From: an uncultured Coriobacteriaceae bacterium
GTDB taxonomy: Bacteria; Actinomycetota; Coriobacteriia; Coriobacteriales; Atopobiaceae
Assembly (NCBI GenBank): GCA_902778135.1
Contig: CACYWP010000012.1
Coordinates: forward strand, 1-64,000
Reading direction: 5' to 3'
DNA: 64,000 nt
Made by a program: the position numbers and the translations under genes. Below are positions 40,166 to 58,029 of this stretch, piece by piece (within the stretch, counting starts at the first letter, position 1; the number at the start of each line of letters is the position of its first letter). The notes beneath the pieces are model-generated. The model was not told the DNA's origin. It ran no database searches and was given only the letters and a program-made list of their open reading frames with translations.

Positions 40166-41166
40166 TGTCGGTCCTGGAGCGCGTGCGCGAGCAGGAGGCG
40201 CGTGGCGTCACGTACGAGGCGGAGCCGGTTGGGGAGGACCTGTCGGGAACGCTCAAGCGCGAGCTCGTCGGCCGGCTTGGCCTGTCCACCGTTGCGTCGA
40301 TGGTCAGCAATGCCGACATCGAGCAGGCCCGTGCCGAGCTGCGCGTCACCTGCCAGGCCATCCTCAACGAGGAGCGCTTCTCTCGCCTGCTGCCGGCGGA
40401 GCGCGACCGGTTGACGTCACGGGTGCTGGACGAGGTGGTCGGGCTGGGTCCCATCCAGCCCCTGCTTGACGACGAAGGCATCTCCGAGGTGATGGTCAAC
40501 GGATGTGGGGCCCTGTACTACGAGCGTGACGGTCGCCTGCATCGGTCAGACGTGACGTTCGAGTCCGCAGACCAGATCATGATGGTCATCGACCGCATCC
40601 TTGCACCCCTGGGACGTCGCCTGGACAAGAGCTCGCCCCTGGTCAATGCACGTCTTGCCAACGGGGACCGCGTCAATGCCGTGGCCGTGCCGATTGCCAT
40701 CGACGGGCCCTACATCACCATCAGGAAGTTCTCGAATCGCATAACGTCGCTGGGCCGGCTGGTCGAGCTGGGATCGCTGCCCGAATGGTACGCCACGCTG
40801 CTGCGATGGGCGGTTCGCCTGCGCAAGGACATTGCGGTGGCGGGAGGCACGGGGTCGGGCAAGACGACCCTGCTCAACGCCCTGTCCTGCGAGATCGACC
40901 ATGGCGAGCGCGTCATCACCATAGAGGACTCGGCCGAGCTGCGCTTCGATCCCCGTGCGCATGTGGTGCGCATGGAGGCGCGCGACGCATCGATCGAGGG
41001 GACGGGCGAAGTCACGATTCGCGACCTGGTGAAGAACGCGCTCCGGCAGCGGCCCGATCGCATCGTGGTCGGCGAGGTTCGTGGCTCCGAGGCCATAGAC
41101 ATGCTGCAGGCCATGAACACGGGGCATGACGGGTCGTTGACTACGCTATGTAAGGAACAGTGTTAG
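40165..41166 (+). pseudogene. cpaF: cpaF/tadA secretion ATPase, truncated by the mobile element
   Basis: The pilus assembly ATPase is read correctly for 328 residues, including Walker A GGTGSGKTTLLNAL (Lys233), Asp/Glu ITIEDSAEL and Walker B region RIVVGEVRGSEA. The expected continuation after MNTGHDGSLTTL is HANSPRDAL. Here it becomes CKEQC and stops. The lost part is roughly the last 100 residues, including the His box. The enzyme is therefore very likely inactive, and the Tad pilus is off while the element remains integrated. The remaining part and downstream tad genes should lie at the element's right end, outside this window. Confidence 0.88.
41137..41148. other. Probable left attachment site (attL) inside cpaF
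   Basis: Homology to cpaF ends at 41148. The last codons, TTG-ACT-ACG-CTA, preserve the family residues LTTL but use A/T-ending codons that are rare in the surrounding genes. This suggests that a short core came with the element and replaced the chromosomal copy. The core exact limits need the right junction. Confidence 0.55.
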
Positions 41167-41224
41167 AAAAACAGGCATTGACCTGCGAAAACGTGAAATC
41201 GACCAGTTGAGAGAGGATGAAGAG

Positions 41225-41455
41225 ATGTCGAAATCAGCGCGAAAAATGACGGTAGTGGACTATATCGACGAGCTCGTCGACGCAACTTTGCGCCTGCATG
41301 CCATGGGTGATTGTCTCATGGCTCTGGGCTCGTGTTCGGGCGAATTCGACGACGGCACGGTTGTCGAGGTTGGCGAGATCGTGTGCGAGGAGGCCGACCG
41401 TCTTGAGACGACCATCGCACGTCTTGGCGACGATATGCGCGTAGCTGTCGTGTGA
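41225..41455 (+). CDS. Small protein of unknown function at the element's left end
   Basis: 76 residues, acidic, predicted largely helical (VDYIDELVDATLRLHAMGD and DRLETTIARLGDDM). No known motif. GAGAGGATGAAGAG precedes the ATG. It is the first gene after attL. Confidence 0.6.
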   Translation: MSKSARKMTVVDYIDELVDATLRLHAMGDCLMALGSCSGEFDDGTVVEVGEIVCEEADRLETTIARLGDDMRVAVV

Positions 41456-41611
41456 CGCGTGTGGGTCAGGGACGGCGCTATTCTCGCGGCATGTCCCTGT
41501 CCCTCGTCGCGTGTCCTGCGCGGCGAGTGGTTGGGTTCAAGAGAAAATAGACCGCTCTGGAGAAGAATTGAACTATGCATGCGAACCATGCATCGGGAGG
41601 GGGAAGTTGCA

Positions 41612-41866
41612 ATGGAACGTGAGTCGATGCAGGGTGCTTGGGAGGAACCGGACTATGGCACCATATACCTGCTATATGACGAGGGGGAGGAGCCGTATGC
41701 GCTGGGAACATACCTGGATCTCGTGATATTTGCATCACAAAAAGATCCCGAACTATGGCCTCATAACCAGTTTGATGTCGACTCGTTGCTCTGGTCTTTT
41801 GACGCATGGGAGACGGGTCGCACAGTAGGAGAGCTTACGGTTGACTCAAGGAGGAGAGGTGAATAA
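41612..41866 (+). CDS. Small acidic protein of unknown function
   Basis: 84 residues, acidic (GTIYLLYDEGEEPYALGTYL), no recognised motif. GGGAGGGGGAAG upstream sets the start at 41612; an in-frame run upstream has no ribosome binding site. Codon usage is less GC-biased than the chromosome. Confidence 0.55.
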   Translation: MERESMQGAWEEPDYGTIYLLYDEGEEPYALGTYLDLVIFASQKDPELWPHNQFDVDSLLWSFDAWETGRTVGELTVDSRRRGE

Positions 41867-41935
41867 GCGGGAGATCATTCACCCCTATCTGCCATACTGG
41901 GCATGACTTTTATGTCCTCGCCCAAGGAGCGTGGT

Positions 41936-43177
41936 ATGTCCGACGCAAAGGAAGCTATTGAACAGTACTTCGATGAGTGGCAGCTCGCTGTCATCAAGGC
42001 AAATCCTGCTTCCCGCTCTCGGGTGATAGCTGGCCCAGGCACTGGCAAGACCACTACCCTCGCGGCGAAGGTGGTCTGGATGGTTGACGCATTTGAATTG
42101 GACCCCGAGTCAATAGTCGTTTTGAGCTTCACGAGAAAGGCCGTCGCAGGCATTCGCAACAAGGTGAGCGAACGCGTGAGCGAGGAAATAGCCCGAGAGA
42201 TCAACGCCAACGTGAGGACATTCGACTCCTACTGCACCATGCTGCTCGAGGGGCCTATGGGCGAGCCAAAGGATCGCCTCAAGAAGATGCAGTACGCGAG
42301 CCGGATCGAGAGGGTAATACAGGGGCTCATCGATGACGCCTCCCCGCTTGCCGGACTGCGACACCTCATCGTCGACGAGTACCAGGACTTGGTGGGCGTG
42401 AGGGCTGACCTTGTGCTGCAGCTCATCGATTCGCTTCCGGAGGAGTGCGGGGTAACACTGCTTGGCGATCCGTGCCAGGCGATCTACAACTACCAGGTGA
42501 AGGGCAGCCGTGAGAGGGACTACGAGAGCTTTCGGCTCGCTAACGAGCGGCAGCCGGGATTCATCGAGTTCGAACTAAAAAAGGAGTACAGGACGAAAGG
42601 ATTCGCCCGACCCGACTGGCTGGTGGATGACCTCGCCGCACTCAGAAGGGCCATCCTTGCGGGGAACGTGTCGGCAGCGGGCGTGGCTGCGTCGATCGCT
42701 GCAGAGGATATCGCCGAGCGCTCTGAAAAGATTTGCACCATGCCCGAGGTGAGACGAAGGGGACTCGAAGAGGTCGTCGGCCATGAGGGGGGCACGAGGC
42801 GAAGAATTGGGGTCATCGCGAGGACTAACAGGGAGGCACAAAGGGTGTCCCAAGAGCTTCTCGGTGCAGTCCAGAATAAGATCCATGTCGAATTGGCAAA
42901 GGATGAGCAATACTCAGGAAACGACGAGAATGCAACAGAGGATGAAGATCCTGGCATTTACGTCTTCACGGTGCACGCCTCAAAGGGTCGGGAGTTCAGC
43001 GAGGTCTGGCTTTGCCAGGAGACCATTGACTACCTGATGCGATGCTGCGGGCTGGCCAGACTCGACCAGGCGGAGGAGGCGCGTGTCGCCTACGTTGCCT
43101 TCACGAGGACAAAGGGGGGCACCCTCGTGCTGCAGCACCTGACTTCCGGGGCCCATGGGACCGACGATTTCGATTAG
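41936..43177 (+). CDS. Compact UvrD/Rep-family (superfamily I) DNA helicase
   Basis: The 413-residue product has motif I AGPGTGKTTTLAAK, motif Ia LSFTRKAVAGI, motif II VDEYQDLV, motif III LLGDPCQAIYNY, motif IV/V VFTVHASKGREF and VAYVAFTRTKGG at motif VI. Full-length UvrD/PcrA/Rep proteins have about 650-730 residues, so subdomains 1B and 2B must be largely missing. AAGGAG lies six bases before the ATG. It converges with the Rep gene and overlaps it by four bases. It may unwind the origin for Rep or act in defence; the first is favoured by position. Confidence 0.85.
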   Translation: MSDAKEAIEQYFDEWQLAVIKANPASRSRVIAGPGTGKTTTLAAKVVWMVDAFELDPESIVVLSFTRKAVAGIRNKVSERVSEEIAREINANVRTFDSYCTMLLEGPMGEPKDRLKKMQYASRIERVIQGLIDDASPLAGLRHLIVDEYQDLVGVRADLVLQLIDSLPEECGVTLLGDPCQAIYNYQVKGSRERDYESFRLANERQPGFIEFELKKEYRTKGFARPDWLVDDLAALRRAILAGNVSAAGVAASIAAEDIAERSEKICTMPEVRRRGLEEVVGHEGGTRRRIGVIARTNREAQRVSQELLGAVQNKIHVELAKDEQYSGNDENATEDEDPGIYVFTVHASKGREFSEVWLCQETIDYLMRCCGLARLDQAEEARVAYVAFTRTKGGTLVLQHLTSGAHGTDDFD

Positions 43178-44313
43178 TCGGATTCCTTCCGATGCGATTG
43201 CGCCTTCGTCCCCCCTCTTCTCCCATTCCTTGTTTTGGTCTTTCTACCATCCTTCGACGTTCGCACTAGCCTTCTTTGCCGGCGGTCCCTGAGTCGTGCG
43301 ATCCTCGCTCTTCGCTCCGCTGTTCTCCCATTCCGTGTTTCAGTCTTCCTAGTATCCTTCGACGTTCGCATCAGCCTTTTTAGCCGGCGGGCCCTGAGTC
43401 TTGCCACTCTCGCTCTTCGCTCCGCCATCGACTTGCGTTCCGACTCTTTCTCCGCCAGTCGCTTTGCCTCGAGCTCTTCCTTCTTTAGCTGCTCCCTCAA
43501 TCTCTGTTCGCGCTCTCGCTCTCTTAGCTGTCTCTCGAAGTCGCGACTCAGCCGATCCCTTGCGTCCTCGCTTCCCGAGAACGCGTAGGTGGGGTTCACG
43601 AGGTGGCACCCGTTGCACAGCTGCACACAGAATGGGGCTGCGAGCCCACAGGCACCCTTGCCTTTGAGCATACGCAAGGCTCGGGTGACGGTCGTCTTGC
43701 TGACCTTCTCGCTATCCCTGGAGCCCCAGTGACTTAGCATGTCCTGGGTCGCCACGACTCGGTTGTCGCGGTCCATCCACTCAAGCATGGATGCGACCAC
43801 GCAGCCTTCGCGACCGGCCAGACTAGCCAGAAGGTCCACCATGCTCTCCCAGTTGCACTTGATCCAATCCTGCCGCTTCTTTTTCTTGCCCTTGCCTTGC
43901 TCGTCGTCATCGCTTGGCGGTTGAGCCCCGGTCAGCTCACTGAACCTGCTCGTAAGCTCCTTGCCCTTCGACGTCGACCCCATGTATAGGTACGTCGGAT
44001 TGATCATGAAGACGCTCGTCCTGACCTTGGCGATGAAGGGGGCCTCCAACTCGCCCTCGCAGGACTTGAGCTTCCTCAGGCAGTCCAACCAGATCGCACG
44101 GGATGGGAGCTTCCGTTCCCGCCTTGCGAACCAGTCACCCTCGTTGCGCACTATCCTCCCTGGCGCGAAGACCTCATTGGTCCGGACGTCCATGTTGTCA
44201 ATAAGCCATGCGGCCACCAACGGCTCGCTGGCTCGCATCGAGCGGAGCAGAGCGATGAGCAGCTTCTTGTCTACCCTGAGCCAGCCGTCCTTAGCTGAAG
44301 ATCCCCCAGCCAT
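43174..44313 (-). CDS. Probable iteron-type replication initiator with duplicated winged-helix region
   Basis: 379 residues. Two halves resemble each other: residues about 17-113 and 156-248 share LIDNMDVRTNEV/LEWMDRDNRVV, RKLKSCEGELEAPF/RMLKGKGACGLAAPF and INPTYLYMGS/VNPTYAFSGS. The pattern resembles RepL-like winged helices, and a two-winged-helix layout is classic for iteron-binding Rep proteins. A charged coiled coil (250-295) and two nearly identical 35-residue basic repeats (297-365) follow. The ATG at 44313 has GGAGG at proper distance; the GTG three codons upstream overlaps it. Iterons lie just upstream. Confidence 0.7.
   Translation of the reverse strand: MAGGSSAKDGWLRVDKKLLIALLRSMRASEPLVAAWLIDNMDVRTNEVFAPGRIVRNEGDWFARRERKLPSRAIWLDCLRKLKSCEGELEAPFIAKVRTSVFMINPTYLYMGSTSKGKELTSRFSELTGAQPPSDDDEQGKGKKKKRQDWIKCNWESMVDLLASLAGREGCVVASMLEWMDRDNRVVATQDMLSHWGSRDSEKVSKTTVTRALRMLKGKGACGLAAPFCVQLCNGCHLVNPTYAFSGSEDARDRLSRDFERQLREREREQRLREQLKKEELEAKRLAEKESERKSMAERRARVARLRARRLKRLMRTSKDTRKTETRNGRTAERRARIARLRDRRQRRLVRTSKDGRKTKTRNGRRGGTKAQSHRKESD
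43219..43428 (-). repeat. Two tandem 105-bp repeats coding the basic tail of Rep
   Basis: The two units code ERRARVARLRARRLKRLMRT and ERRARIARLRDRRQRRLVRT, followed by SKDTRKTETRNGR and SKDGRKTKTRNGR. DNA identity is high, indicating recent unit duplication. The basic repeats would bind DNA or RNA non-specifically. Confidence 0.85.
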
Positions 44314-44424
44314 GTTGGCCACCTCCGTTCTTTTTACGCTCGAAAAGCACGTCGGAAAGCGTCTCCGGTGTCAGGCTGCCGTCTGAAAGCCGATGAAAGA
44401 CACGTCAATTATAGGCGCAGCCAG

Positions 44425-46000: not shown

Positions 46001-48166
46001 ATGACTACATGTGAAGTCGCCGTCGCTGCTCTCGACTGGATCCCATGCTCTGAGCAGGACTACGGAGACTGGATTCGCGTCGGCATGGGCCTCCACAAGA
46101 TGGAGCAGGAGCAGGAGAACTACGACTCCTCGGGCAACGTCATCGACGTGCTCTCCGAGTGGACCCGATGGTCCGCATCCGACCCCGACCGGTTCGTTGA
46201 CGGCGAGTGCGGAGCGAAGTGGGAGACCTTCGGCTGCTCCTCCGGCGAGACGGTCGGCCCGGCAACCATCATTGAGATGGCGAAAGGCTATGGATACGTC
46301 CCGGGAGGCGGCATGGCAGACGTCGCCCTGGAGTGGGGCGAGACTGCAGCTATCGATGCGGTCACGCCGCCGCCCGCCGACACGTCGGCTTGGTCCACGT
46401 CACCGTCGCAGATGGCCATCGAATACCTCGGTGCGCTCTTCAAACCGAACGAGTACGTGGCCTACACGGTCAAGTTTTCCGAGGATGACAGGCACCCCGG
46501 AAAGTGGCGCCCCTATGGGTGCTATTGCGACCGCACGTCCGAGGAGCTTACCGACGAGCTCAAAGAGCTCGCTGCACAGGGCTGCGACGATCTCGGCGCG
46601 GTGTTCGGCATTCCCAGCCCGACGGAAGGTGGTGCATGCGTATGCGTCAACCCCACCGACGGCAACGGCCGCACCAGGGAGAGCATCATCGAATATCGCC
46701 ACGTCGTCGCCGAGTCGGACGAGGATGACAGGGACACCTTCATCCGGGTCACGAGGCAGCTCCGACTGCCCGTGTCGGCGCTGGTAGACAGCGGCAATAA
46801 GAGCGTCCACGCGATCGTGCGCGTCGACTGCGGTGATGACGCCAAGTTGTACCGCAAGCGCTTCGAGGCTGTCAGGGCCGCCTACGCGTCATGGGGCATC
46901 ACCATCGACAAGGCCTGCTCGAACCCAAGTCGCATGTCACGACTGCCAGGCGTCATGCGCGGCAGCCGCATTCAGGCGCTGCTCGCAACCGACATCGGCG
47001 CCTTGTCTTGGGGTGAGTGGGAAGCATGGTACCGAGATGCGTGCGACAGGCCCAGGCTCCCCCCGTGGAGGTGCGTGCAGGCGGCGAATCCGCCGCATAG
47101 GGCCCCCGTGCTCGTGGAGGGCATCATGCGACGTGGGCACATCGGCCTCATCTCGGCGAAGGCGAAGCAGGGGAAGTCGTGGCTTGCGATCATGCTCTCC
47201 GTCGCCGTTGCGACTGGCGGCGAGTGGCTCGGACGCAGGTGCCAGCAGGGGAGGGTGCTGTACATCGACCCTGAGATTGACAGCAGGAGCCTCTCGAACC
47301 GCTTCGCAGTCGTATGCGATGCGATGGGCGTGGATCCCGCGCTCGTCGACAGGTCGGTGTACAAGTGGTCGCTGCGTGGCGCCCTCACTGCGGAGGGCAA
47401 GCCTTCCGTCATGGACGACCTTGCCCACGACGTGGTCCTGAGCGGCGAGGACCTCGCATTGGTGGTCATCGACTCCTGCAGCTGCTTCATTGGCGCAGAC
47501 GGCGACGAGAACTCATCCGTTGCGGTGCGCGGCCTCATTGCGCACGTCCATCGCATCTGCAGCTCAACCGGCGCGGGCGTGCTGCTCGTGCACCATCATG
47601 GCAAGGGGCTTTCGGGCGACCGCGAGGCCTCCGACCGTGCTCGGGGCTCCTCGGTCTGGGTGGATGCGCCTGACGTGGTGCTTACGCTCACGGAAATCGT
47701 GCCGGCAAGCGGCGAGGCGGCGGAATACATCGGGGCCGGAGCCCATGCGATGGTCCTTGAGGACGCCGGGCTGCGCGAGTTTCCGGCAACCGAGCCCACG
47801 CACCTGATCTTCAAGTACCCCGTACACCGCGTGGACGAGGATGGGATCACGGCTGACTGGAAGCCTCGGAGCAGCTCTCAGAGAGGCGGAAAGGCCGCCG
47901 CGTCCATCAACAAGGCGAAGGCGGGCATGCGCGCTGACATGTGCGCAGCAGTGCTGTCCGCGCACTTCGCGGCAGACGAGTCCGTCGACGAGCTCTCTGG
48001 GACTGACGCCGCGGCGATCTGCCAGAACGCCCTGGGCGAGAAGGTCTCGACACAGACGCTCAAGGGCTACCTCTCAGACAGGGACCTCAGTGGAATCGCC
48101 GTACGGCAGACCTCGGCCAAACGCTGGCATGTGGTGCGCGACGACGTTACCGAAGAAACGAAATAG
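46001..48166 (+). CDS. Replication protein: PriCT-2 domain plus RecA-like (RepA/AAA_25) ATPase
   Basis: 721 residues. The N-terminal part (about 10-115) shows the primase C-terminal-2 pattern: DWIRVGMGLHKME, then SEWTRWSASDP and an AKGYGY end. A central segment (about 130-330) resembles RepB-type primase/polymerase regions (KSVHAIVRVD, SRMSRLPG). A RecA-fold ATPase follows with Walker A AKAKQGKS (Lys392), Walker B LALVVIDSCSCF and VLLVHHHGKG. The C-terminus is winged-helix-like. GGAAGGA is nine bases before the ATG. It combines priming and helicase functions for element replication. Confidence 0.85.
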   Translation: MTTCEVAVAALDWIPCSEQDYGDWIRVGMGLHKMEQEQENYDSSGNVIDVLSEWTRWSASDPDRFVDGECGAKWETFGCSSGETVGPATIIEMAKGYGYVPGGGMADVALEWGETAAIDAVTPPPADTSAWSTSPSQMAIEYLGALFKPNEYVAYTVKFSEDDRHPGKWRPYGCYCDRTSEELTDELKELAAQGCDDLGAVFGIPSPTEGGACVCVNPTDGNGRTRESIIEYRHVVAESDEDDRDTFIRVTRQLRLPVSALVDSGNKSVHAIVRVDCGDDAKLYRKRFEAVRAAYASWGITIDKACSNPSRMSRLPGVMRGSRIQALLATDIGALSWGEWEAWYRDACDRPRLPPWRCVQAANPPHRAPVLVEGIMRRGHIGLISAKAKQGKSWLAIMLSVAVATGGEWLGRRCQQGRVLYIDPEIDSRSLSNRFAVVCDAMGVDPALVDRSVYKWSLRGALTAEGKPSVMDDLAHDVVLSGEDLALVVIDSCSCFIGADGDENSSVAVRGLIAHVHRICSSTGAGVLLVHHHGKGLSGDREASDRARGSSVWVDAPDVVLTLTEIVPASGEAAEYIGAGAHAMVLEDAGLREFPATEPTHLIFKYPVHRVDEDGITADWKPRSSSQRGGKAAASINKAKAGMRADMCAAVLSAHFAADESVDELSGTDAAAICQNALGEKVSTQTLKGYLSDRDLSGIAVRQTSAKRWHVVRDDVTEETK

Positions 48167-48218
48167 CCGAGTGCCCTTCTAAAGGCACGTACACGTTATT
48201 GGCCATATGGCGCATATG

Positions 48219-48249
48219 GCTTGGGTGCGCGACGCAGCGCAACCCAAGC
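48219..48249 (+). promoter_or_regulatory. Hairpin before an unknown gene
   Basis: GCTTGGGT pairs with ACCCAAGC and inner GCGC with GCGC, allowing one bulged base. It lies 18 bases before the GAGAGGAG of the next gene. Fits the same hairpin-then-ribosome-site layout. Confidence 0.65.
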
Positions 48250-48282
48250 CCATTGCGTCATGGGCCGAGAGGAGTATTCAGC

Positions 48283-48981
48283 ATGCACACAGGCAAGCAA
48301 GCGAACACCAATCTCACGGATGCCGACACTACGGGATTCGGCGCAATCGGGGAGCCGCAAGGCATCGACCGCATGATCGACAGCGCGATGCAGGCGGCCT
48401 ACGAGATGGGCCACAGCGACGCGTTTCCCAACGACGGAGGCGACCGTATCCACTTGGTCAAACAGGTGGCGTCGTATGTCAGAAAGTCGATATGGGCCGC
48501 GCTCTACGAGGCAGAACGCCGAGGCCGGGCTATCGGTCGGCTCGAGGAAGTCGACCTGAAGGGCCTGCCAAGAGCCTCCGAGGACGAACGCTGGCGGATC
48601 GTCGATATCTGCAACGACGCGGCGGCGGAGTACTGCGAGTTGCTCGGACAGCCTTTCCGCGTCGAGGGCACCGGCATCTGCGCGGACATCTTCATGGAGG
48701 TTGCCGGCGGCTACGAGATAGAGGTCATGAACTACGTGATTCACGTCAATGACGGGTCGAACGTGGTGCAGGTGAACCTCTGGCACTTCCCCGATCCCGG
48801 TGACCGCCTGAGAGGCACACAGGTCGTGCGCGTCAACTGGGTTCCCAACGACCCGGGGGCCGTGCACGACGTGGCACGACGGCTGATCGGCGCGCGCGAT
48901 GCCCTCGGCACGCGACCCTTCGCCATCGACTGCTTCCACAGCCGGCTCGACGAGGCCCTCGCCCCATACGAAGCGGAGTAG
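48283..48981 (+). CDS. Conserved-looking protein of unknown function
   Basis: 232 residues, no recognised domain. The middle (DICNDAAAEYCELLGQPFRVEGTG) looks like a small alpha-beta fold and the C-terminal half is beta-rich. GAGAGGAG sets the ATG at 48283. Part of the rightward replication operon. Confidence 0.65.
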   Translation: MHTGKQANTNLTDADTTGFGAIGEPQGIDRMIDSAMQAAYEMGHSDAFPNDGGDRIHLVKQVASYVRKSIWAALYEAERRGRAIGRLEEVDLKGLPRASEDERWRIVDICNDAAAEYCELLGQPFRVEGTGICADIFMEVAGGYEIEVMNYVIHVNDGSNVVQVNLWHFPDPGDRLRGTQVVRVNWVPNDPGAVHDVARRLIGARDALGTRPFAIDCFHSRLDEALAPYEAE

Positions 48982-49308
48982 GAGAGACGTGGTGGCGGGG
49001 TCCACACACCTGGTCTTCAGGCGTTTTGGGCCCCGACACTGCGCTGGTCCGTCCATGCGACGCCCCAACACGCAGAGACAGGCGATTCTCCTCGACACAT
49101 TAGCCATGCGCGCATCGCCCGCATGGCCGACAGAAGAAAAGGGCGAATGGGACATCAAAGAAGGAGAGGAGTGCCATGGGCACAGCATGCGCTTATCGCA
49201 AGGCATCTCGCGACCCGCCAACCGAACCGGCGGGCTGACAGAACCAAGCGGCCGGACGTACCGACCGCAGAAACGCTAGGCGACAAGATGTCGCAGAAAG
49301 GGTCGAAC
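48982..49308. other. Intergenic stretch with a possible 20-residue leader peptide
   Basis: No normal gene. AAGGAGAGG followed by an ATG at 49176 opens a 20-codon frame ending at 49238, with a strong ribosome binding site; it may be a leader peptide or chance. CCCGCC/GGCGGG (49214-49234) forms a hairpin within it. The downstream gene start at 49309 has AAAGGG. Confidence 0.4.
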
Positions 49309-49863
49309 ATGACGACCACCACCAAGGACCTGACGGGCGCTGGGAAGCAAGTCCATGCCAGGTCCGCAAACAACTGGAGTGACCCCGCATTTCCGAAGAG
49401 CGGTTGGGTCATCGAAGATGTCGCAGACCTCAAGCTCGAAACCGACTCGGGCATCGGCGTGTGCGATCACTACAAGAACTGCGAGATGTGCGGGCACGAG
49501 CACATACGTTACGCAGCCGCTCTCTTCCATCCCGAGAAGGGCCTCGAGCTCCTTGCCGGGCGTCGCTGCACCGGGCGCCTCACCGGCATTCCCGACGATG
49601 TCGAATCGCTCTTCAGGGCGATGAGACTGCGAGGCCAGCGTTACGACCGCTTCAAGAAGAAGGCGTGGCAGAGCCTGCCAGAGGGCATCGAGCTCAGCCT
49701 ACGGGATGCCACCATCAGCGTGAGGCCGCGCAGGGGGATGTGGGATGTCATCTGCACCCCCAAGGCCAAGGACAAGGCAGAGCGTCTGGGTGGTGCCGAC
49801 ACGCTCGAAGAGGCAAAGAAGGTCGCGTTCGATCTCTACGAGGTCATGAAGGGCCGATGGTAG
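49309..49863 (+). CDS. Cysteine-containing protein of unknown function
   Basis: 184 residues. CDHYKNCEMCGHEHIRY (about residues 47-63) has three Cys and two His in zinc-finger-like spacing, and ELLAGRRCTGRLTG adds a fourth Cys. The C-terminal half is basic and helical. AAAGGG sets the start at 49309; the frame is open upstream but without a ribosome site. Possible nucleic-acid binder, from the Cys cluster and basic tail. Confidence 0.65.
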   Translation: MTTTTKDLTGAGKQVHARSANNWSDPAFPKSGWVIEDVADLKLETDSGIGVCDHYKNCEMCGHEHIRYAAALFHPEKGLELLAGRRCTGRLTGIPDDVESLFRAMRLRGQRYDRFKKKAWQSLPEGIELSLRDATISVRPRRGMWDVICTPKAKDKAERLGGADTLEEAKKVAFDLYEVMKGRW

Positions 49864-49875
49864 CCACCGTGCGCA

Positions 49876-49912
49876 TGCATGGATGGCACACCTGCGGTGT
49901 GCCATCCATGCA
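49876..49912 (+). promoter_or_regulatory. Perfect 16-bp hairpin between two operon genes
   Basis: TGCATGGATGGCACAC pairs with GTGTGCCATCCATGCA over a 5-base loop. No T-run follows. It lies 31 bases before GAAAGGA of the next gene. Confidence 0.8.
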
Positions 49913-49960
49913 AGGGACTGAAATGACAGAAGTCATCACGAACGAAAGGACGATCCCATC

Positions 49961-50290
49961 ATGATGACGAGACAACAGATGAAGAGCAGGTCCAGGATAC
50001 TTTTCGAGACCGGAGAGTGGTCGCGATTGCCCGGCAATGCAGAGCATGCGACGTACTGGGCAATCTGGCAACTGAACGCCGAGCTCCGCACCCGAGACAC
50101 CCTCAGCGAGACCCAGCGCATGCTCGGCGTTGCCGACACGCGCATAGACGGACAGGAGCTCGTCGACTTCGTGAGCGGGAACCTCGACGATATCGCGGAG
50201 CGCGCGTACTCGCTGCTCTTCGATGACGGGCCCGAGGTTCGCCAGATGGTTACGGCCACGCTCGCGAAGGTCATCGCACCAAGCAAGTAG
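49961..50290 (+). CDS. Small helical protein of unknown function
   Basis: 109 residues, largely helical, no motif recognised (RMLGVADTRIDGQELVDFVS). GAAAGGA precedes the ATG; a second ATG follows directly. Part of the hairpin-punctuated operon. Confidence 0.6.
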   Translation: MMTRQQMKSRSRILFETGEWSRLPGNAEHATYWAIWQLNAELRTRDTLSETQRMLGVADTRIDGQELVDFVSGNLDDIAERAYSLLFDDGPEVRQMVTATLAKVIAPSK

Positions 50291-50303
50291 GTATCAATCT
50301 TTT

Positions 50304-50340
50304 CGGGATGCGTGCGCCATACGTGGCGTGCGCACTCCCG
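50304..50340 (+). promoter_or_regulatory. Hairpin, copy A of a duplicated leader
   Basis: CGGGATGCGTGCGCCA folds back on TGGCGTGCGCACTCCCG with one bulge and a 4-base loop. Preceded by TTTT. Nearly the same sequence recurs at 50915-50951. Confidence 0.75.
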
Positions 50341-50363
50341 AGCGAAGAGAAAGTGTATGTGTC

Positions 50364-50831
50364 ATGCAGGATATCGATGTGTTGGCTAGGTCTGAAAGAA
50401 CATGCCTTATGCCGGATAAGAACGTGTTGGCTGAGGCCAGGTGCCTTTTGCCAAACATGAAGACTCTGGTTATTACCAATGAGTTACTGGCGAACCCACG
50501 ATCCGAGGACGAGTCGAAGACCGAATGGGTCTATGAGCTGATATGGCTCTGGAGCAAGCGTTTCGAGGTCGGTGATGCTACGGACTCGGAACTCGCATGG
50601 CTCTCGGTAATGGACCGTCTGATTAGTGTTTCGACAGAGTGCCATGTTAGCGAGGACTGCCCAATCTTCGCCGCCTGCGACGAAGATTGGGGCCGGATCA
50701 TCAAGGACCATGCCGACGAGCTCATTTCGACGGCATGCAAGCTGGCTTCGGGTCAAGATCCCGCAATCGAATGCGGGTACCCGTTCGCGTATAGAAGCGT
50801 TCTCGCCATGGCCGAGCAGATGCTCTCGTAG
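50364..50831 (+). CDS. Protein of unknown function
   Basis: 155 residues, acidic, no recognised motif; Cys-containing SECHVSEDCPIFAACDEDWG segment near residue 95. The ribosome site is weak (GAGAAAG); a later ATG at 50410 is an alternative start. Lower GC than neighbours. Confidence 0.5.
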   Translation: MQDIDVLARSERTCLMPDKNVLAEARCLLPNMKTLVITNELLANPRSEDESKTEWVYELIWLWSKRFEVGDATDSELAWLSVMDRLISVSTECHVSEDCPIFAACDEDWGRIIKDHADELISTACKLASGQDPAIECGYPFAYRSVLAMAEQMLS

Positions 50832-50914
50832 CACGCTCCGGCAGGAATCGTTCCGCCGCAGTCGCTCCGTGACAGGATGTCAGCTGCGACGACCGTGTAG
50901 TAATTAATGGTTTT

Positions 50915-50951
50915 CGGGGTGCGTGCGCCATGGGTGGCGCGCGCACGCCCG
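50915..50951 (+). promoter_or_regulatory. Hairpin, copy B of a duplicated leader
   Basis: CGGGGTGCGTGCGCCA pairs with TGGCGCGCGCACGCCCG over a TGGG loop with one bulged base. Also preceded by TTTT. GGAAAGG of the next gene follows eight bases after the stem. Confidence 0.75.
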
Positions 50952-50973
50952 AACGTATGGAAAGGTATTCCTT

Positions 50974-51273
50974 ATGCGCAAGATTATCAACGGCAAGACG
51001 TACGACACTGAGACCGCCAAGGAGGTAGCCATCTTGATACGTTCGTGCGAACGTGACTACTTCGAGGAGACGCTCTTCTTGAAGAGGACTGGTGAGTTCT
51101 TCCTGTACGGCGAGCCCGGACCCCTTCATATCTGGTTGGGCGATCAGGCATATGCCATGGCACCCTATGGCCGGGGCATCACACCACTCACCGTGGAAGA
51201 GGCCAGCAAATGGGCTGAGGAAGGCATGATGCCCAAGGCGCGCGAAGCACTTTTCGGAAAGGTCGAGGAGTAG
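50974..51273 (+). CDS. Small protein, MRKIINGKTYDTETA family of mobile elements
   Basis: 99 residues starting MRKIINGKTYDTETAKEVA. I recall similar N-termini among unnamed proteins on integrative elements of gut Firmicutes and Actinobacteria, but their function is not known. GGAAAGG sets the start. It is the last gene of the rightward operon, before a strong terminator. Confidence 0.7.
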   Translation: MRKIINGKTYDTETAKEVAILIRSCERDYFEETLFLKRTGEFFLYGEPGPLHIWLGDQAYAMAPYGRGITPLTVEEASKWAEEGMMPKAREALFGKVEE

Positions 51274-51564: not shown

Positions 51565-52542
51565 CTAGATGAGCGAGTCGGCAATGGCTTTGTTGAGCAC
51601 GCCACCTGCGACGTCGTCCCAGGTCTCGAGGCTTGCGAGCCAGATGATGAATCGGTCATGGATGAACCAGTCGACGCCTCCGATGCGGGCTCTCTTGAAG
51701 CCCGGCACAATCTCCGGGTCAATTCCGGGATGGAACATGTCGGGCGCCGGCATGACGTAGGGCTGCGTTCCTGTGGCGTCGAAGAGCCCGTTGCATGCGA
51801 TGCGGAAGTGCTTCCAGTCCGAGTCGAAGTCGTCACGATGGTCGCGAAAGCACTTCACGAAGGCCTCGTCGAATGCGTGGTTCACCTCGGTGGGCTTCCC
51901 ATCCCTGTCGTAGCGCACGAGCTCGTCACGGCTCAGGACGCCCGCATAGCGTCTGTTGCCGTCGTCGTCATTGTCGTCATGACGCCAGTGCATGACGTCC
52001 GGCATCTCGGTACCATACTTTGATAGCGCTACAAGCGCAACCTGCGAAGGTTGCATGTAGCGGTTGTCGAGCCAGAGCTCACCCGCCTCCTCGGCACGAG
52101 CCTTCTCGCGGGCGTAGGCGCCATCGCTCATGCGCCCCATGCGCGAGTCGGGCTTGAGGTGGCTGTTTTCGTCCATGTTGTCCTTGAACTCATCGTTGAA
52201 CGCCTTCGCGGGGTGCTGCAGAGGCTCGATGCTCGTGCCACCACTGGTGAGGTAGGCGAGAAGACAGAACACCATACGCTCGCTTGTGTTGGGGAACCAA
52301 TCGCATACGGTTGGGTGGTCGGTGTAGAGATCGATCCGGCCATTCTCGGCGCCAGGCGTGGCGCGATTGTAAAGGTTGTCAAGCTCGACGACGAGGTCGT
52401 CTGGGATGGGTTCGGCGCAGCGTTTGGCGATGATGTCACGCGTGCGCTTCTCGACGTCGCGAAGACCGCCTGCGCGGAATGCCTCGACGAGCGCGAGACG
52501 CAGGCAGGCGACATGCTCGATTTGGCGAGGGTCAGGGCACAT
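51565..52542 (-). CDS. Protein of unknown function in the antirestriction operon
   Basis: 325 residues, acidic, cytoplasmic. No domain recognised. GELWLDNRYMQPSQVALVAL and the aromatic DWFIHDRFIIWLASLE near the end are the most distinctive segments. AAAGGAG six bases upstream fixes the ATG at 52542. It follows ardA in the same operon, so an anti-defence role is possible (inference). Confidence 0.65.
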   Translation of the reverse strand: MCPDPRQIEHVACLRLALVEAFRAGGLRDVEKRTRDIIAKRCAEPIPDDLVVELDNLYNRATPGAENGRIDLYTDHPTVCDWFPNTSERMVFCLLAYLTSGGTSIEPLQHPAKAFNDEFKDNMDENSHLKPDSRMGRMSDGAYAREKARAEEAGELWLDNRYMQPSQVALVALSKYGTEMPDVMHWRHDDNDDDGNRRYAGVLSRDELVRYDRDGKPTEVNHAFDEAFVKCFRDHRDDFDSDWKHFRIACNGLFDATGTQPYVMPAPDMFHPGIDPEIVPGFKRARIGGVDWFIHDRFIIWLASLETWDDVAGGVLNKAIADSLI

Positions 52543-52591
52543 AGGGGCTCCTTTCATGAGTATGTACGTGTACGGCCTACGCGAGGGCGGG

Positions 52592-53233
52592 CTATTCAGA
52601 GCCGACATGCCACGGCATCATCTGCTCGATGTCGTCCCACGAGTAGCGGTTCTGGTCGGGGAAGTCTTGGCATAGATCGACATAGCCGTCATCGCCGAGG
52701 GCGACGTTCGCGGACCATGCACGACCGAAGTCCTCAAGGTCGAAGTAGTCCGACACGCCATTCGCGCCGAGTGCATCCCACCATGAGGTCCCTTGTGCCA
52801 ACTGGTAGCCGTATTTCTCCTCGGGCGAGTCGTTGGCGCAAAAATCAGGCACGTCATAGACGTAGTACGGAAGCCGATCTGCCTCTATCAGCCAATTGGC
52901 GATGCCTAGGATGTCGTCAGGTTCCTCGCCGGACGTCTCGATGAATGCGGTCAGCGTCTCGCACTCAAGCGGAAGCATGTCCATCAGCTGCGCGAGCATA
53001 TTGAGGTGTTCGAGAGGTGTGTGCTCGTTGAGGATCGTGCCAAAGTCAAGGCCCAGAATCGGCAGCTCGTAGTCACTTATATATATCTCTTCTCTGGTTG
53101 GATCCCAGAGACGATGCTTGATGAGCCATGGCTTGATCGTTGCCGGGTCAACGGGAAGGTCGATCCATGTGTCATGGATCTCGCCTTCGAGATACCAGCC
53201 ATACGAACCCACGCAAACCGACATGGTCGACAT
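52592..53233 (-). CDS. ardA: ArdA-family antirestriction protein
   Basis: ArdA is an acidic DNA mimic that blocks type I restriction enzymes. The 213-residue product starts MSTMSVCVGSYGWYLEGEIHDTWIDLP, the family's VGxYxxYxxG pattern, then YISDYELPIL and, near the C-terminus, GVSDYFDLEDFGRAWSANV. It is strongly acidic. AAAGG lies eight bases before ATG 53233. It sits beside the mobilisation region, the normal position for a gene expressed early in a new host. Confidence 0.88.
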   Translation of the reverse strand: MSTMSVCVGSYGWYLEGEIHDTWIDLPVDPATIKPWLIKHRLWDPTREEIYISDYELPILGLDFGTILNEHTPLEHLNMLAQLMDMLPLECETLTAFIETSGEEPDDILGIANWLIEADRLPYYVYDVPDFCANDSPEEKYGYQLAQGTSWWDALGANGVSDYFDLEDFGRAWSANVALGDDGYVDLCQDFPDQNRYSWDDIEQMMPWHVGSE

Positions 53234-53237
53234 GCAT

Positions 53238-53840
53238 TCAGCCTTTCTCTCGATCTTCCCACTCCTGGATGACTTCGGCGAGGTTTTCGAGGAAGACGCT
53301 GTAGCTCATCTCATCACAGTCCCAGAACTCTTCTCGCGAACCATCGGGCCAGACGAGTCCATAGACGCAGTCCTCTTCGCCATAGAGTTCTGCCCTTGGG
53401 TCACAGGCGAGGGAGATGATGCGATGCCACGCGTCACTTCCAGAGACGCTGTCGGTACAGACTTCCTCTTCGTTCTCTGCAAACGAGACTGCTTGAATCA
53501 ACGCATCTGTGCCGAGCCTCCAATCGCACATCGTGAAGTTGCGATGCCTCTCTGTGAGCTCTTGCCTATATGGCACGGCAACAGGGATGGCGCGAAGCTC
53601 CGCGGGCTCTGGCGTGACGAAGCCTGTGACCTCATGGTGTTGGTTGGTGAGCGGCGTCATGTCCTCGCCCTCGAGGAAGAGTTCGCTGGCAGCTTCTAGA
53701 TATGCGACAGCGTCGACACCGCTGAGCCAGGCGATCTCGACGCGGCGCGACGCTGGGCGGTAATCAGCGACGGCAATGGTGCGAGATTCAGGCCAGGACG
53801 GAAGCATGATTGCGCCGGACCCGACGCGGTAGATGCTCAT
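53238..53840 (-). CDS. Acidic protein of unknown function next to ArdA
   Basis: 200 residues, strongly acidic; by my count about 40 Asp/Glu against about 15 Arg/Lys. No recognised motif. Its start overlaps the stop of the upstream gene by four bases (ATGA), and ardA begins five bases after its stop, so the three genes form one translational unit. Charge and position suggest another DNA-mimic anti-defence protein; inference only. Confidence 0.65.
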   Translation of the reverse strand: MSIYRVGSGAIMLPSWPESRTIAVADYRPASRRVEIAWLSGVDAVAYLEAASELFLEGEDMTPLTNQHHEVTGFVTPEPAELRAIPVAVPYRQELTERHRNFTMCDWRLGTDALIQAVSFAENEEEVCTDSVSGSDAWHRIISLACDPRAELYGEEDCVYGLVWPDGSREEFWDCDEMSYSVFLENLAEVIQEWEDREKG

Positions 53841-54397
53841 AGCGGCACGTCCTCGTCTTCGGTCCATTCCTCGGGCCAGTCCTCGAGCATCTCCGTAACC
53901 CACTCAGGGTCAGGCCGCGTAGATATGAACTCGGGCAGGTTGACGTGCGCAATGTTGTGATGCTCGACGATGCGGATGCGCTCCGGCGTCAAGATGACGT
54001 CGACGATGACGCCTTCGATATGCTCAGGATCCTTGTGCAGCGAGAAGACGAACGGGTCGTCGTTGGCGAACTCCGTCACGATCTGCTTGAGACGTGCGAC
54101 GAGATTGCTGTCGAGCGATGGGTCGTGCCGTGCCGCGACGAGCGCCGCGTCACCGTCGTTTTCGGCGTCGTAGGTGCGCACGATGACGAGCAGGATCTCT
54201 TCGTGACTCTGCGCGATGAAGTCGAGCTCTTGTGCATGTGGGTTGGACCATTCGCTTAGGTCGAGCGGTTCGAAGTATCTAATGATGAGCGAATCAGCGA
54301 CCAGGAGCCGTGCGCGCTTTCGGTCGAGCTTCTGTGCGTCGCTGTCGTGAATGGTGAGCACGTCATGGCTCACGATGCTGAGGACTGCGTCGCTCAT
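53837..54397 (-). CDS. Very acidic protein of unknown function, first gene of the ardA operon
   Basis: 186 residues with about 41 Asp/Glu and about 13 Arg/Lys by my count, ending in WVTEMLEDWPEEWTEDEDVP. No motif recognised. GGAG precedes the ATG at 54397. It is the gene nearest to the candidate oriT and would be among the first to enter a recipient if transfer proceeds leftwards. Net charge resembles ArdA and other DNA mimics. Confidence 0.65.
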   Translation of the reverse strand: MSDAVLSIVSHDVLTIHDSDAQKLDRKRARLLVADSLIIRYFEPLDLSEWSNPHAQELDFIAQSHEEILLVIVRTYDAENDGDAALVAARHDPSLDSNLVARLKQIVTEFANDDPFVFSLHKDPEHIEGVIVDVILTPERIRIVEHHNIAHVNLPEFISTRPDPEWVTEMLEDWPEEWTEDEDVPL

Positions 54398-55663
54398 AGG
54401 CGGACTCCAATCTGTGACGGATTGGGAATGCTTGCACAAGGCATCCCTGTCTGCGCCATGCTGTTTTCAGCGTGGCGCACGACCTGCTTTGAGATGGGGA
54501 TGCCAGGTTTTTCAATGCCTTCGTGCAAGTGGAGGGACCTTACATAGTCCCGTAACGCAGCGCGGGGTGTTGGAAAACCGCGAGTGCGTGATGGCTGAAA
54601 AGACGCTACAGTGGCGAATTCTGACATCACGCTTTCGGCGCGAAAGTGGCAGAACCGCGTGCGGTTCGTTGTCACGTCGCGACGTTTTCCGCGTGCGGGA
54701 ATGCTTGCATTCATCGTGACGCGGTTGCAAGAAACAGACACTAGATGCAAGCATGGCTTGCTTCGTTTGTGGCGATTCTTGCATCGACGGACTGCGCGAA
54801 CGAGAGGCAAAACTAGGTACAAGTTTTGTCACGAAGTACGGCGCAGGACGGAGCGGACGAGTCGCAGGAATGCTCACGCGGAGCGTGGCCAAACTGTGCG
54901 ACGAGTCGATGCGCGAGCGAAACCAGATGACACACATGGAGCATAAGCGGGATGTGTGTCTGAGGGTGGAACGAGCGTTAGCCGGAGGATCCAAGGGGCG
55001 CGCAGCGGGCCCCTGGCAAGTGTTACGCTGAATAGTCACGAGGCGCAGCCCGTGTACGTATTCCGCGTCTACTTGCTTTATTTCTTGAGGCAGCATCGTG
55101 CCGGGACAGGACACGCACCCGCGACAAGTGGCTCTACCACTTTTGGGGGCGGATCCTGGCGTGGCCGAGGGCGGTATCGGCACCTTGTGAGTGGCGATGC
55201 CGAGCGGAGCGGACGTGTGCGAAATGGCCGTTTCGTGGCTGTGCCACGAAGGCCATGGAGCACACGGCAGCGAAGCGTCCCGAAGAGATGTTGCCCGATC
55301 CTCTTCGGTATTCCGAAGAGGACAATGCCCTTAACCTCCGGCGGGGTGAGCGTGCTCGCCCCGACGTGCAATCGTGCCTTGGCAAGACGTCCGTTTGCTT
55401 CGCTTTGTGCCTTTGGATTCTTGCGTCACGTGTCGTGACTCACGCTCTGAACTGCGTCGATATGGATGCTTTTGCTTGTGTTCGCGGCACCTTTAAGTGA
55501 TGCGCGGTATGTGTCGTACTTCGCTTGCATGCGCAAGCGCGATGTGCAACGATTTTGCTGTGCGGATGCTGTTCGTCAGCATCGCACCATCGCTACCGAG
55601 GCGGGACTGGCGACCCCCACAGCCTACGACATCAATCGTTGCGCGTGTGGGAGGTGCCGCGCC
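54398..55663. other. 1.27-kb non-coding tract with inverted repeats; candidate oriT
   Basis: No frame here has both a ribosome site and gene-like composition. Repeats seen: GGGAATGCTTGCA at 54424-54436 and 54697-54709, with TGCAAGCAT inverted at 54746-54754; AAGTGG-(5)-CCACTT at 55126-55142; CCTCTTCGG-(4)-CCGAAGAGG at about 55302-55323; CGCTTGC-(4)-GCAAGCG at 55522-55539; GATGCTG-(5)-CAGCATC at 55565-55583. Its place between the ardA operon and mobC-relaxase is that of an origin of transfer plus divergent promoters. The nick site is not identified. Confidence 0.55.
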
Positions 55664-56188
55664 ATGGGTGAGCCAAGAAGCAATCAAAAGAAGACGGACG
55701 CGACCATTCCGCAGATTCCTGCGGAGGTCGTGGCCGGATTCTTGGGTGGTGAGAACGAGCGCAAGAGCCAGCGCTTCGAGGTGCGCCTGAGCGAGAGCCA
55801 GGTCGCGGCGCTGACCTACATATCGAGTCAGTTCGGCATCACGCCGAGCGAAGTCTTGCGCCGCGCAACCTTCGCGCCGGAGCGCTTGAGTCAGATGGTC
55901 ACGAGGCGCGAGTGGGAGCTTGCCGGTGACTATGTCGCGTACCGCAATGCCGTCATCGACCTGAAGGCGGAACTTGTCGAGGTTCACCGTCAGATCGCAA
56001 AGCTCGGTGTGAACGTGAACCAAATAGCACGGCGTCTTAATGTCGGCGGCGACGGTATGACCAAGCTTGAGATGCAAAGCATCAAGATCGACTTCGATTA
56101 CATCCGTGACCGTTGTGACAAGCTCAACGCCAAAGCTGACCGTCTGCTCGAGAACTACGAGTCCTTGCTTCCGTTTGAGAGTGAGTAG
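55664..56188 (+). CDS. mobC: MobC-like relaxosome accessory protein
   Basis: 174 residues. An N-terminal ribbon-helix-helix-like segment (RFEVRLSESQVAALTYISSQ, then TPSEVLRRATF) is followed by HRQIAKLGVNVNQIARRLN, the hallmark of bacterial mobilisation proteins, and a C-terminal coiled coil. MobC proteins bind oriT and help the relaxase. The ATG at 55664 follows GGGAGGTGCCGCGCC. The relaxase start is two bases after its stop. Confidence 0.85.
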   Translation: MGEPRSNQKKTDATIPQIPAEVVAGFLGGENERKSQRFEVRLSESQVAALTYISSQFGITPSEVLRRATFAPERLSQMVTRREWELAGDYVAYRNAVIDLKAELVEVHRQIAKLGVNVNQIARRLNVGGDGMTKLEMQSIKIDFDYIRDRCDKLNAKADRLLENYESLLPFESE

Positions 56189-56190
56189 TC

Positions 56191-58029
56191 ATGCCGACCA
56201 CCTACGTCGAACCGCTGCCACATCTGCGCGGACGACTTAATTATGTGGTGTACGGTTCCGGCCCAGAGGGCACCAAGAACCGTCGCGAGCACAACGCAGT
56301 GCGTCCCCTTGCGCAGTGGTGTAGCTTCGCAGACATAGAGACCATGGGTACTTATGCGCGCCGGGTTCGTGAGCGCTCTGGCAATCGCCGATATGAGGGC
56401 CATGAGATAAGGGTCAGCTGGAGCATCAATGAGCTGAACCCAGAAAGCGAGGAGGACGTCCTTCGTGCGATGGAGTTTGGCCACGCGCTCGTCGCCGAGT
56501 TGTTTCCCGAGAGCCCGTATTCGATCGTCGCGCATGGCGACGGCGTCGGCGGCTGCTTGCATCTGCACATCGACATAGTCAACGTCACCGACACGACCAC
56601 ATGCCGTGCGATCCGTGGCTTCGGTCGCACCAACTGGCAGATACGGGCGATCACGGACGTGCTCTGTCGCGAGCGTCAGATGCGCGTCGTGCGTCCCGCG
56701 CAGCATGCGAGCGAGTGGGCCGAGCGTGCGCAGGAGCTTGAGTCGAAGATAGACGCGACGATGGAACAGCTGGGCGATGGCGACAGGTGGACGCACTCGC
56801 TTCGCGACAATGTAGTCGCGCTAAGAATCGGCACCATCATAGACCGTGTCATCACGCGCCATGCAAAAGAGATTCATAGCGTCGAGGACCTGGAGCGACA
56901 CCTTCGGGGATACGGCGTTGGCATCAAGCGCAAGGCGCTCGCCGACGGCAGTGAGGGCTGGACCTACACATCTGAAGTCGAACTTGAGGGCAAGTCACGC
57001 GTGAGGCGGTGCAAGGCTTCGAAGATTCTGGCAGGCTATGCCGCCAATCGCATCATGGACACTGTTACTGAAGAGCGTGAACGCCAGGAGCAAGCCGAGC
57101 GCGAGCGCATCGAGGCGCAACAGGCCGAGGAGCAGGCGAGGCAGGAGGCTGCCGAGAGGTGGCGTGCCGAGCGTGCGCGACGGAAGGCCGAGCAAAGGGG
57201 GCGGGCGGAGGCGGCGCGTCTCGAGCGTGAGCGTCAGGAAGAGGAGAGACGACTCAAGGCCGAACGGGATGCACGTGATACGGACTTGCGCGAGCGGAGG
57301 CTGCGGGAGATTCGCGAGGATCGTGAGCGCGAGCAGCGGTCGATGCTCGATGCCATGGGCGACCGCGCACAGGCACGTGATCGCGACCTGAGCCGTGCGG
57401 TGCGCGTCGACTATTCGCGCGACGGCAACGACGGACGCGTGGCGGTCAACGCTGCCATGATCGGCGCTCTTGAGAGCCCTTGGAGCATCGTCGTGAAGAA
57501 CGACACCGTCAGGACCTATGCCGATGCCGCTCTGGCCGAGATGTCGCGCCATGGGAGCCCGACGCTTCGTCGTGAGCTGCAATCGTGGCGCGACGGTTCA
57601 GACGACGAGCTCATGTGCGGCACGCCCGCCAGGCGCGTGGCTGACGCGCTCGGCGAGCAGATGCGGCTTGGAGTGCGCGGCAGGTGGGAAGACGAGATGC
57701 CGATGGACAAATATGCCGGCTTTGCCTGCGGCTTCAGGTTGGCGATGGAGGCGAGCAAGCGAGATGGCGTCGCAAGTGCCATGTCTGTGATCTGTGGCAT
57801 GTACGCGCTTGCATGCGAGCAGGTGGAGGGAGTGCGAACGAGGATTCGCGACCGTGCCAGGCAGGTCCTGACGCAGCTTGGCGTGATGCCGAAGGCGCGT
57901 CAGGGGGAGATGTCGCAGGCACGTGCGCAGGCATATGAGCCATGGGTCGAGGGAGGTTCGGGTGGATTGTCCCGTAAGAACGAATCGGAATATGGAGGAC
58001 ATCAATGGAAGGGAGAGCTGACGCGATGA
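56191..58029 (+). CDS. Relaxase (MobA-type nickase) with long coiled coil
   Basis: 612 residues. The N-terminal 220 residues form the relaxase: an early Tyr in LNYVVYGSG, and the metal-binding triad in HGDGVGGCLHLHIDIVN (His115, His124, His126). Residues about 295-395 are a highly charged Glu/Arg coiled coil. The C-terminal 200 residues are unknown. It nicks oriT and pilots the strand. Start two bases after mobC; stop overlaps the next gene by 25 bases. Confidence 0.88.
   Translation: MPTTYVEPLPHLRGRLNYVVYGSGPEGTKNRREHNAVRPLAQWCSFADIETMGTYARRVRERSGNRRYEGHEIRVSWSINELNPESEEDVLRAMEFGHALVAELFPESPYSIVAHGDGVGGCLHLHIDIVNVTDTTTCRAIRGFGRTNWQIRAITDVLCRERQMRVVRPAQHASEWAERAQELESKIDATMEQLGDGDRWTHSLRDNVVALRIGTIIDRVITRHAKEIHSVEDLERHLRGYGVGIKRKALADGSEGWTYTSEVELEGKSRVRRCKASKILAGYAANRIMDTVTEERERQEQAERERIEAQQAEEQARQEAAERWRAERARRKAEQRGRAEAARLERERQEEERRLKAERDARDTDLRERRLREIREDREREQRSMLDAMGDRAQARDRDLSRAVRVDYSRDGNDGRVAVNAAMIGALESPWSIVVKNDTVRTYADAALAEMSRHGSPTLRRELQSWRDGSDDELMCGTPARRVADALGEQMRLGVRGRWEDEMPMDKYAGFACGFRLAMEASKRDGVASAMSVICGMYALACEQVEGVRTRIRDRARQVLTQLGVMPKARQGEMSQARAQAYEPWVEGGSGGLSRKNESEYGGHQWKGELTR

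Follow-up and report, generated by a model that had tools for sequence, protein, structure and literature searches.

The window, by which we mean the whole 64,000-nucleotide stretch analyzed here (contig CACYWP010000012.1 of an uncultured Coriobacteriaceae bacterium), carries four genes, A, B, ardA, and D, arranged in tandem on the minus strand (Table 1). A and B overlap by four bases (ATGA), four bases separate the end of B from the start of ardA, and 49 bases lie between ardA and D. Translation of B is probably coupled to that of A through the ATGA overlap, and all four genes would be carried on a single transcript. On the far side of A lie a probable oriT, a mobC-like relaxosome gene, and a relaxase gene. 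Alignment of the mobC-like product with its relative begins only at residue 79, and its true start is probably 55664 or later. The coordinates given for these genes in a preliminary description of the locus hold throughout.

Table 1. The operon and the adjoining mobilization region, in window coordinates
Feature	Position	Strand	Properties
Gene D (uncharacterized protein)	51565–52542	−	325 aa; relative 77% identical, in the same operon
ardA (ArdA-family anti-restriction protein)	52592–53233	−	213 aa; Pfam PF07275 and PDB 2w82
Gene B (orphan acidic protein)	53238–53840	−	200 aa; ORF; relative 61.5% identical
Gene A (orphan acidic protein)	53837–54397	−	186 aa; ORF; relative 60% identical
Probable oriT core	54979–55016		GC-rich inverted repeat 54991–55016 plus nic-like motif
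nic-like motif ATCCTCCGGC	54990–54981	−	resembles MOBP nic region; follows the inverted repeat
mobC-like relaxosome gene	55466–56188	+	PF05713, 2.6e-6; PF21983 (NikA-like), 6e-4
MobA/VirD2-type relaxase	56191–58029	+	PF03432, 3e-7; relatives in five other genomes

The order A-B-ArdA-D, the A/B overlap, and the spacing are found again in OMWB01000024.1 (L011/L025), a contig of G129, the uncultured actinobacterium isolate RUG002 from the rumen, which belongs to the same genus as the host. Identity between the two elements is 60% for A, about 62% for B, 58% for ArdA, and 77% for D, with 50% for MobC and 53% for the relaxase among the neighbors. The dN/dS values of this comparison are all below 0.5 (A 0.44, B 0.24, ArdA 0.21, D 0.23). 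Because the arrangement recurs and dN/dS is low, as purifying selection would have it, the four are genes and not chance ORFs. The tight operon with overlapping A and B adjoining ardA, as first described, is thus common to a second element.

The element itself appears to begin somewhere within 41000–44400, where the chromosome-like part of the window ends and GC content falls from about 0.68 to 0.59; a UvrD-like helicase and a RepL-like protein (43174–44322) belong to the element. Left of D, the plus-strand genes of 46011–51273 point toward oriT; they comprise one for a replication protein (PriCT_2/AAA_25) and several uncharacterized ORFs, and the product of 50355–50831 is acidic (−8.9 per 100 aa). 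Further along the same contig (C12 of G000), type I restriction-modification genes form a complete locus at 67322–75395 (L023 7323–15396), 13 kb past the ardA operon. HsdM, two HsdS, and HsdR were identified there by Pfam, and a large AAA protein (75468–78824) and a possible McrC-like gene come next. This locus is possibly cargo of the same element. The gene at 88526–92227 (L064 9527–13228), possibly a defense gene, encodes 1233 aa, with a DarT-like ADP-ribosyltransferase domain at the N-terminus as well as DEAD helicase domains.

Both elements read D-ArdA-B-A, then a conserved hairpin, then mobC and the relaxase. Over the 1 kb that separates A from mobC, identity with the OMWB01000024.1 relative is 75%, and the longest identical intergenic run, 35 nt at 54979–55013, spans the GC-rich inverted repeat; a run of this length was matched in 14 of 5000 column shuffles. 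This conserved hairpin block beside the relaxase genes is probably the oriT. Across three elements with related relaxases, a minus-strand hairpin with ATCCTC or ATCCTG lies about 1–1.3 kb upstream of the relaxase, the motif after the inverted repeat being ATCCTC here and in the G129 element and ATCCTG in the relaxase relative G047. The MOBP consensus core is ATCCTG, with (C/T)ATCCTG(C/T) following an inverted repeat (PMC3772185), and the motif in the window is a near rather than an exact match, with ATCCTC in place of the required ATCCTG. Exact matches to the hairpin in IMG/VR were confined to contigs without a related relaxase and were treated as chance.

On which side of oriT does the operon enter a new cell? 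In both elements it is on the side of the putative oriT away from the relaxase. The relaxase genes are usually the last to enter, and anti-defense genes are enriched in leading regions (PMC11541004). With nic at the minus-strand motif, the T-strand would run leftward, with A-B-ArdA-D toward its front and the relaxase at its end. By this rule and the nic-like motif, the operon is probably on the leading side. The adjacency to a candidate oriT proposed in the preliminary description is supported by a conserved hairpin block with mobC and the relaxase beyond it, and the proposed leading position is probable. The four genes match the inferred T-strand in sense; they could not be read from the single strand as it enters, and their expression would require second-strand synthesis. 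Transcription from the inferred T-strand would be open to the plus-strand genes of 46011–51273.

ArdA is a true member of its family. It matches Pfam PF07275 with an E-value of 8e-17 (62.7 bits against a cut-off of 27) over positions 1–154 of the 155-position profile, and PDB 2w82 (Tn916 ORF18) with an E-value of 1.7e-4. Full-length match to the family, strong acidity (42 acidic and 8 basic residues), and location beside the oriT/relaxase region are all shared with known ArdA proteins; ardA lies beside the oriT/relaxase region on ColIb-P9 and Tn916 as well. It differs in length (213 aa versus 165), in being only about 28% identical to the Tn916-type protein, and in being embedded in an operon with three further genes. 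Net charge per 100 aa in the four members compared is −16.0 here, −16.4 in the OMWB01000024.1 relative, and −14.7 (−12.9 with a longer start) and −19.4 in proteins from two other genera, so that strong acidity with few basic residues is kept across all four. ArdA is rare, with 5 of 140 genomes of the family encoding it. HsdR is present in 8 of the 18 genomes of the host genus, which makes type I restriction a real barrier there.

Two further ArdA loci came to light. In L017 (G080:C3, 4433–8547), from another genus, another ArdA of the long subfamily, 37% identical, is followed downstream by two very acidic orphan proteins of 414 aa (−13 per 100 aa) and 162 aa (−19 per 100 aa); considered as relatives of A and B, these showed no detectable relationship, and judged by charge they would be better DNA-mimic candidates than A or B. 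The ArdA locus in L019 (G005:C168, 339–3713) is truncated and has several acidic genes, among them one whose product carries a MuF C-terminal domain (PF18819) and a neighbor whose N-terminus is near-identical.

No match to A was detected in Pfam, NCBIfam, PHROG, PADLOC, PDB, plasmids, phages, or IMG/VR; B likewise had no family match in Pfam, NCBIfam, PHROG, PADLOC, or PDB and none in plasmids, phages, or IMG/VR. The family searches with A, B, and D (Pfam, NCBIfam, PHROGs, PADLOC) returned only chance-level listings. Among 140 genomes of the family and 398 of the class, no homologs of A or B were found beyond the OMWB01000024.1 relative, and a search of GTDB contigs, made with B alone, added nothing to it. 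Weak matches in two genomes of the same genus proved antisense to real genes, and the remainder among the 398 class genomes were at the level expected by chance. Since nothing else matched in the collections searched, A and B are new orphan families. This distribution fits fast-evolving accessory genes. As for co-occurrence with ardA elsewhere, which the preliminary description put forward as a check, ardA is present at both loci; however, A and B are known from those two loci only, so their co-occurrence lends no strong support.

As two small genes that overlap and lie on a mobile element, A and B could be a toxin-antitoxin pair or a similar two-gene addiction system. Typical toxin-antitoxin pairs include a small DNA-binding antitoxin, whereas A and B are both acidic, both 186–200 aa long, and without a match to any toxin-antitoxin family. 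On size and charge we reject this reading as highly improbable.

Are A and B instead new DNA-mimic inhibitors, as was first proposed, whose acidic surface would stand in for the DNA backbone and so block a restriction or CRISPR enzyme? They share an operon with a known DNA mimic and resemble T7 Ocr and similar proteins in being small, acidic, and linked to restriction evasion. A has 40 acidic and 14 basic residues (net −26, or −14.0 per 100 aa) and B has 39 and 15 (net −24, or −12.0 per 100 aa), placing them in the most acidic 1.6% and 2.8%, respectively, of 248 host genes from a 400 kb genome sample (mean −3.3, 5th percentile −9.6 per 100 aa). The earlier count for A, about 41 acidic and 13 basic, is thus slightly revised; the strong acidity it conveyed stands for the protein in the window but is weaker in the relative, where A has only −10.7 and B only −8.5 per 100 aa, against −16.4 for ArdA. 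In this one homolog, high negative charge is poorly kept by A and B, unlike the ArdA controls (−13 to −19). Nearly half of the excess charge of A sits in a C-terminal tail of 34 residues (12 acidic, 1 basic) that is absent from the relative, and its core, residues 1–152, carries −9.9 per 100 aa against −8.6 in the relative. Acidity is only moderate, at about −8.5 to −10 per 100 aa, in the conserved core of A and in the relative's B. Furthermore, A and B contain 13–19 basic residues compared to 6–11 in the ArdA proteins, and profile comparison found A, B, and ArdA mutually dissimilar. Set against Ocr-like mimics, A and B are richer in basic residues, and their charge density is lower and poorly conserved. 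AlphaFold models, built from two-sequence alignments only, had pLDDT values of 39 for A and 37 for B and were not usable. The charge comparison, drawn from one relative, is a weak but real counter-test to mimicry. It weakens the original proposal: the negative charge is too weak or too poorly conserved for A and B to be called DNA mimics, and we regard mimicry as unlikely.

Gene D, suggested as a possible third mimic, has 58 acidic and 39 basic residues. At −5.8 per 100 aa it stands at the 25th percentile of the 248 host genes, an acidity that is not unusual. D has no family match in Pfam, NCBIfam, PHROGs, or PADLOC. Its residues 108–186 recur at 31–39% identity in three genomes of another genus of the family (L020, L021, and L022), and a domain of about 70 aa is common to D and to proteins encoded near ClpP and type IV secretion system (T4SS) coupling-protein genes in other Coriobacteriia. 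There, the gene for the D relative directly follows a ClpP-type protease gene (confirmed by Pfam in L020) and directly precedes a T4SS coupling-protein gene, confirmed as PF02534 in both L021 and L022; the following ORF of L020 opens with the N-terminus of this coupling protein but is disrupted. Given the ordinary charge of D and the position of its distant relatives beside the coupling protein, D is unlikely to be a mimic and is more likely a protein of the transfer module. The 93 kb contig encodes no relative of the L021 coupling protein, which suggests that the element is mobilizable rather than self-transmissible.

The relatives of D indicate that the operon is not purely one of anti-defense genes. 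Could A and B then be plasmid-housekeeping proteins, active in replication, as relaxosome accessories, or in transfer regulation, that merely share a transcript with ardA? They lie directly beside the probable oriT, and an operon partner, D, has relatives next to a T4SS coupling protein. However, strong negative charge argues against DNA binding, neither protein resembles the replication or mobilization families of Pfam, NCBIfam, or PHROG, and both are missing from other genomes with related relaxases. A housekeeping role therefore strikes us as doubtful.

We favor, with a probability of about 0.5, the reading that A-B-ArdA-D forms a single establishment operon on a mobilizable element found in ruminant-gut Coriobacteriia, in which A and B are lineage-specific proteins that antagonize defense or assist ArdA without DNA mimicry. 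Lying on the side of oriT away from mobC and the relaxase, the operon would probably be among the first expressed once the entering DNA is double-stranded. ArdA, to judge from its family, would inhibit type I restriction by DNA mimicry. A and B would be its lineage-specific partners with coupled translation, most likely antagonizing other host defenses or assisting ArdA, and would bind protein targets through ordinary acidic globular domains; D would be a transfer-module protein on the shared transcript. For A and B, this functional reading would be one of guilt by association across two loci. A stronger version, in which A and B each represent a new family of defense inhibitors confined to mobile elements of ruminant-gut Coriobacteriia, with a target other than type I restriction and a new mode of action, seems improbable.

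Leading-region anti-defense islands (Samuel et al. 2024, PMC11541004) likewise combine a known anti-restriction gene with uncharacterized genes on the side of oriT away from the relaxase. In those islands, the genes can be transcribed from the T-strand, whereas the operon here has the same sense as the inferred T-strand, and it contains no SSB or PsiB gene. That orientation, unlike that of typical leading-region anti-defense genes (PMC11541004), counts against an establishment operon, as does a nic motif of ATCCTC where ATCCTG is required.

What does the locus offer? Part of the charge of A sits in a non-conserved tail, which shows how weakly acidity by itself points to DNA mimicry. Unknown genes in an ardA operon beside oriT are good candidates for new anti-defense proteins, and such genes are little known in gut Coriobacteriia. 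The conserved operon provides two testable orphan families, A and B, which may help the element to establish itself in new cells.
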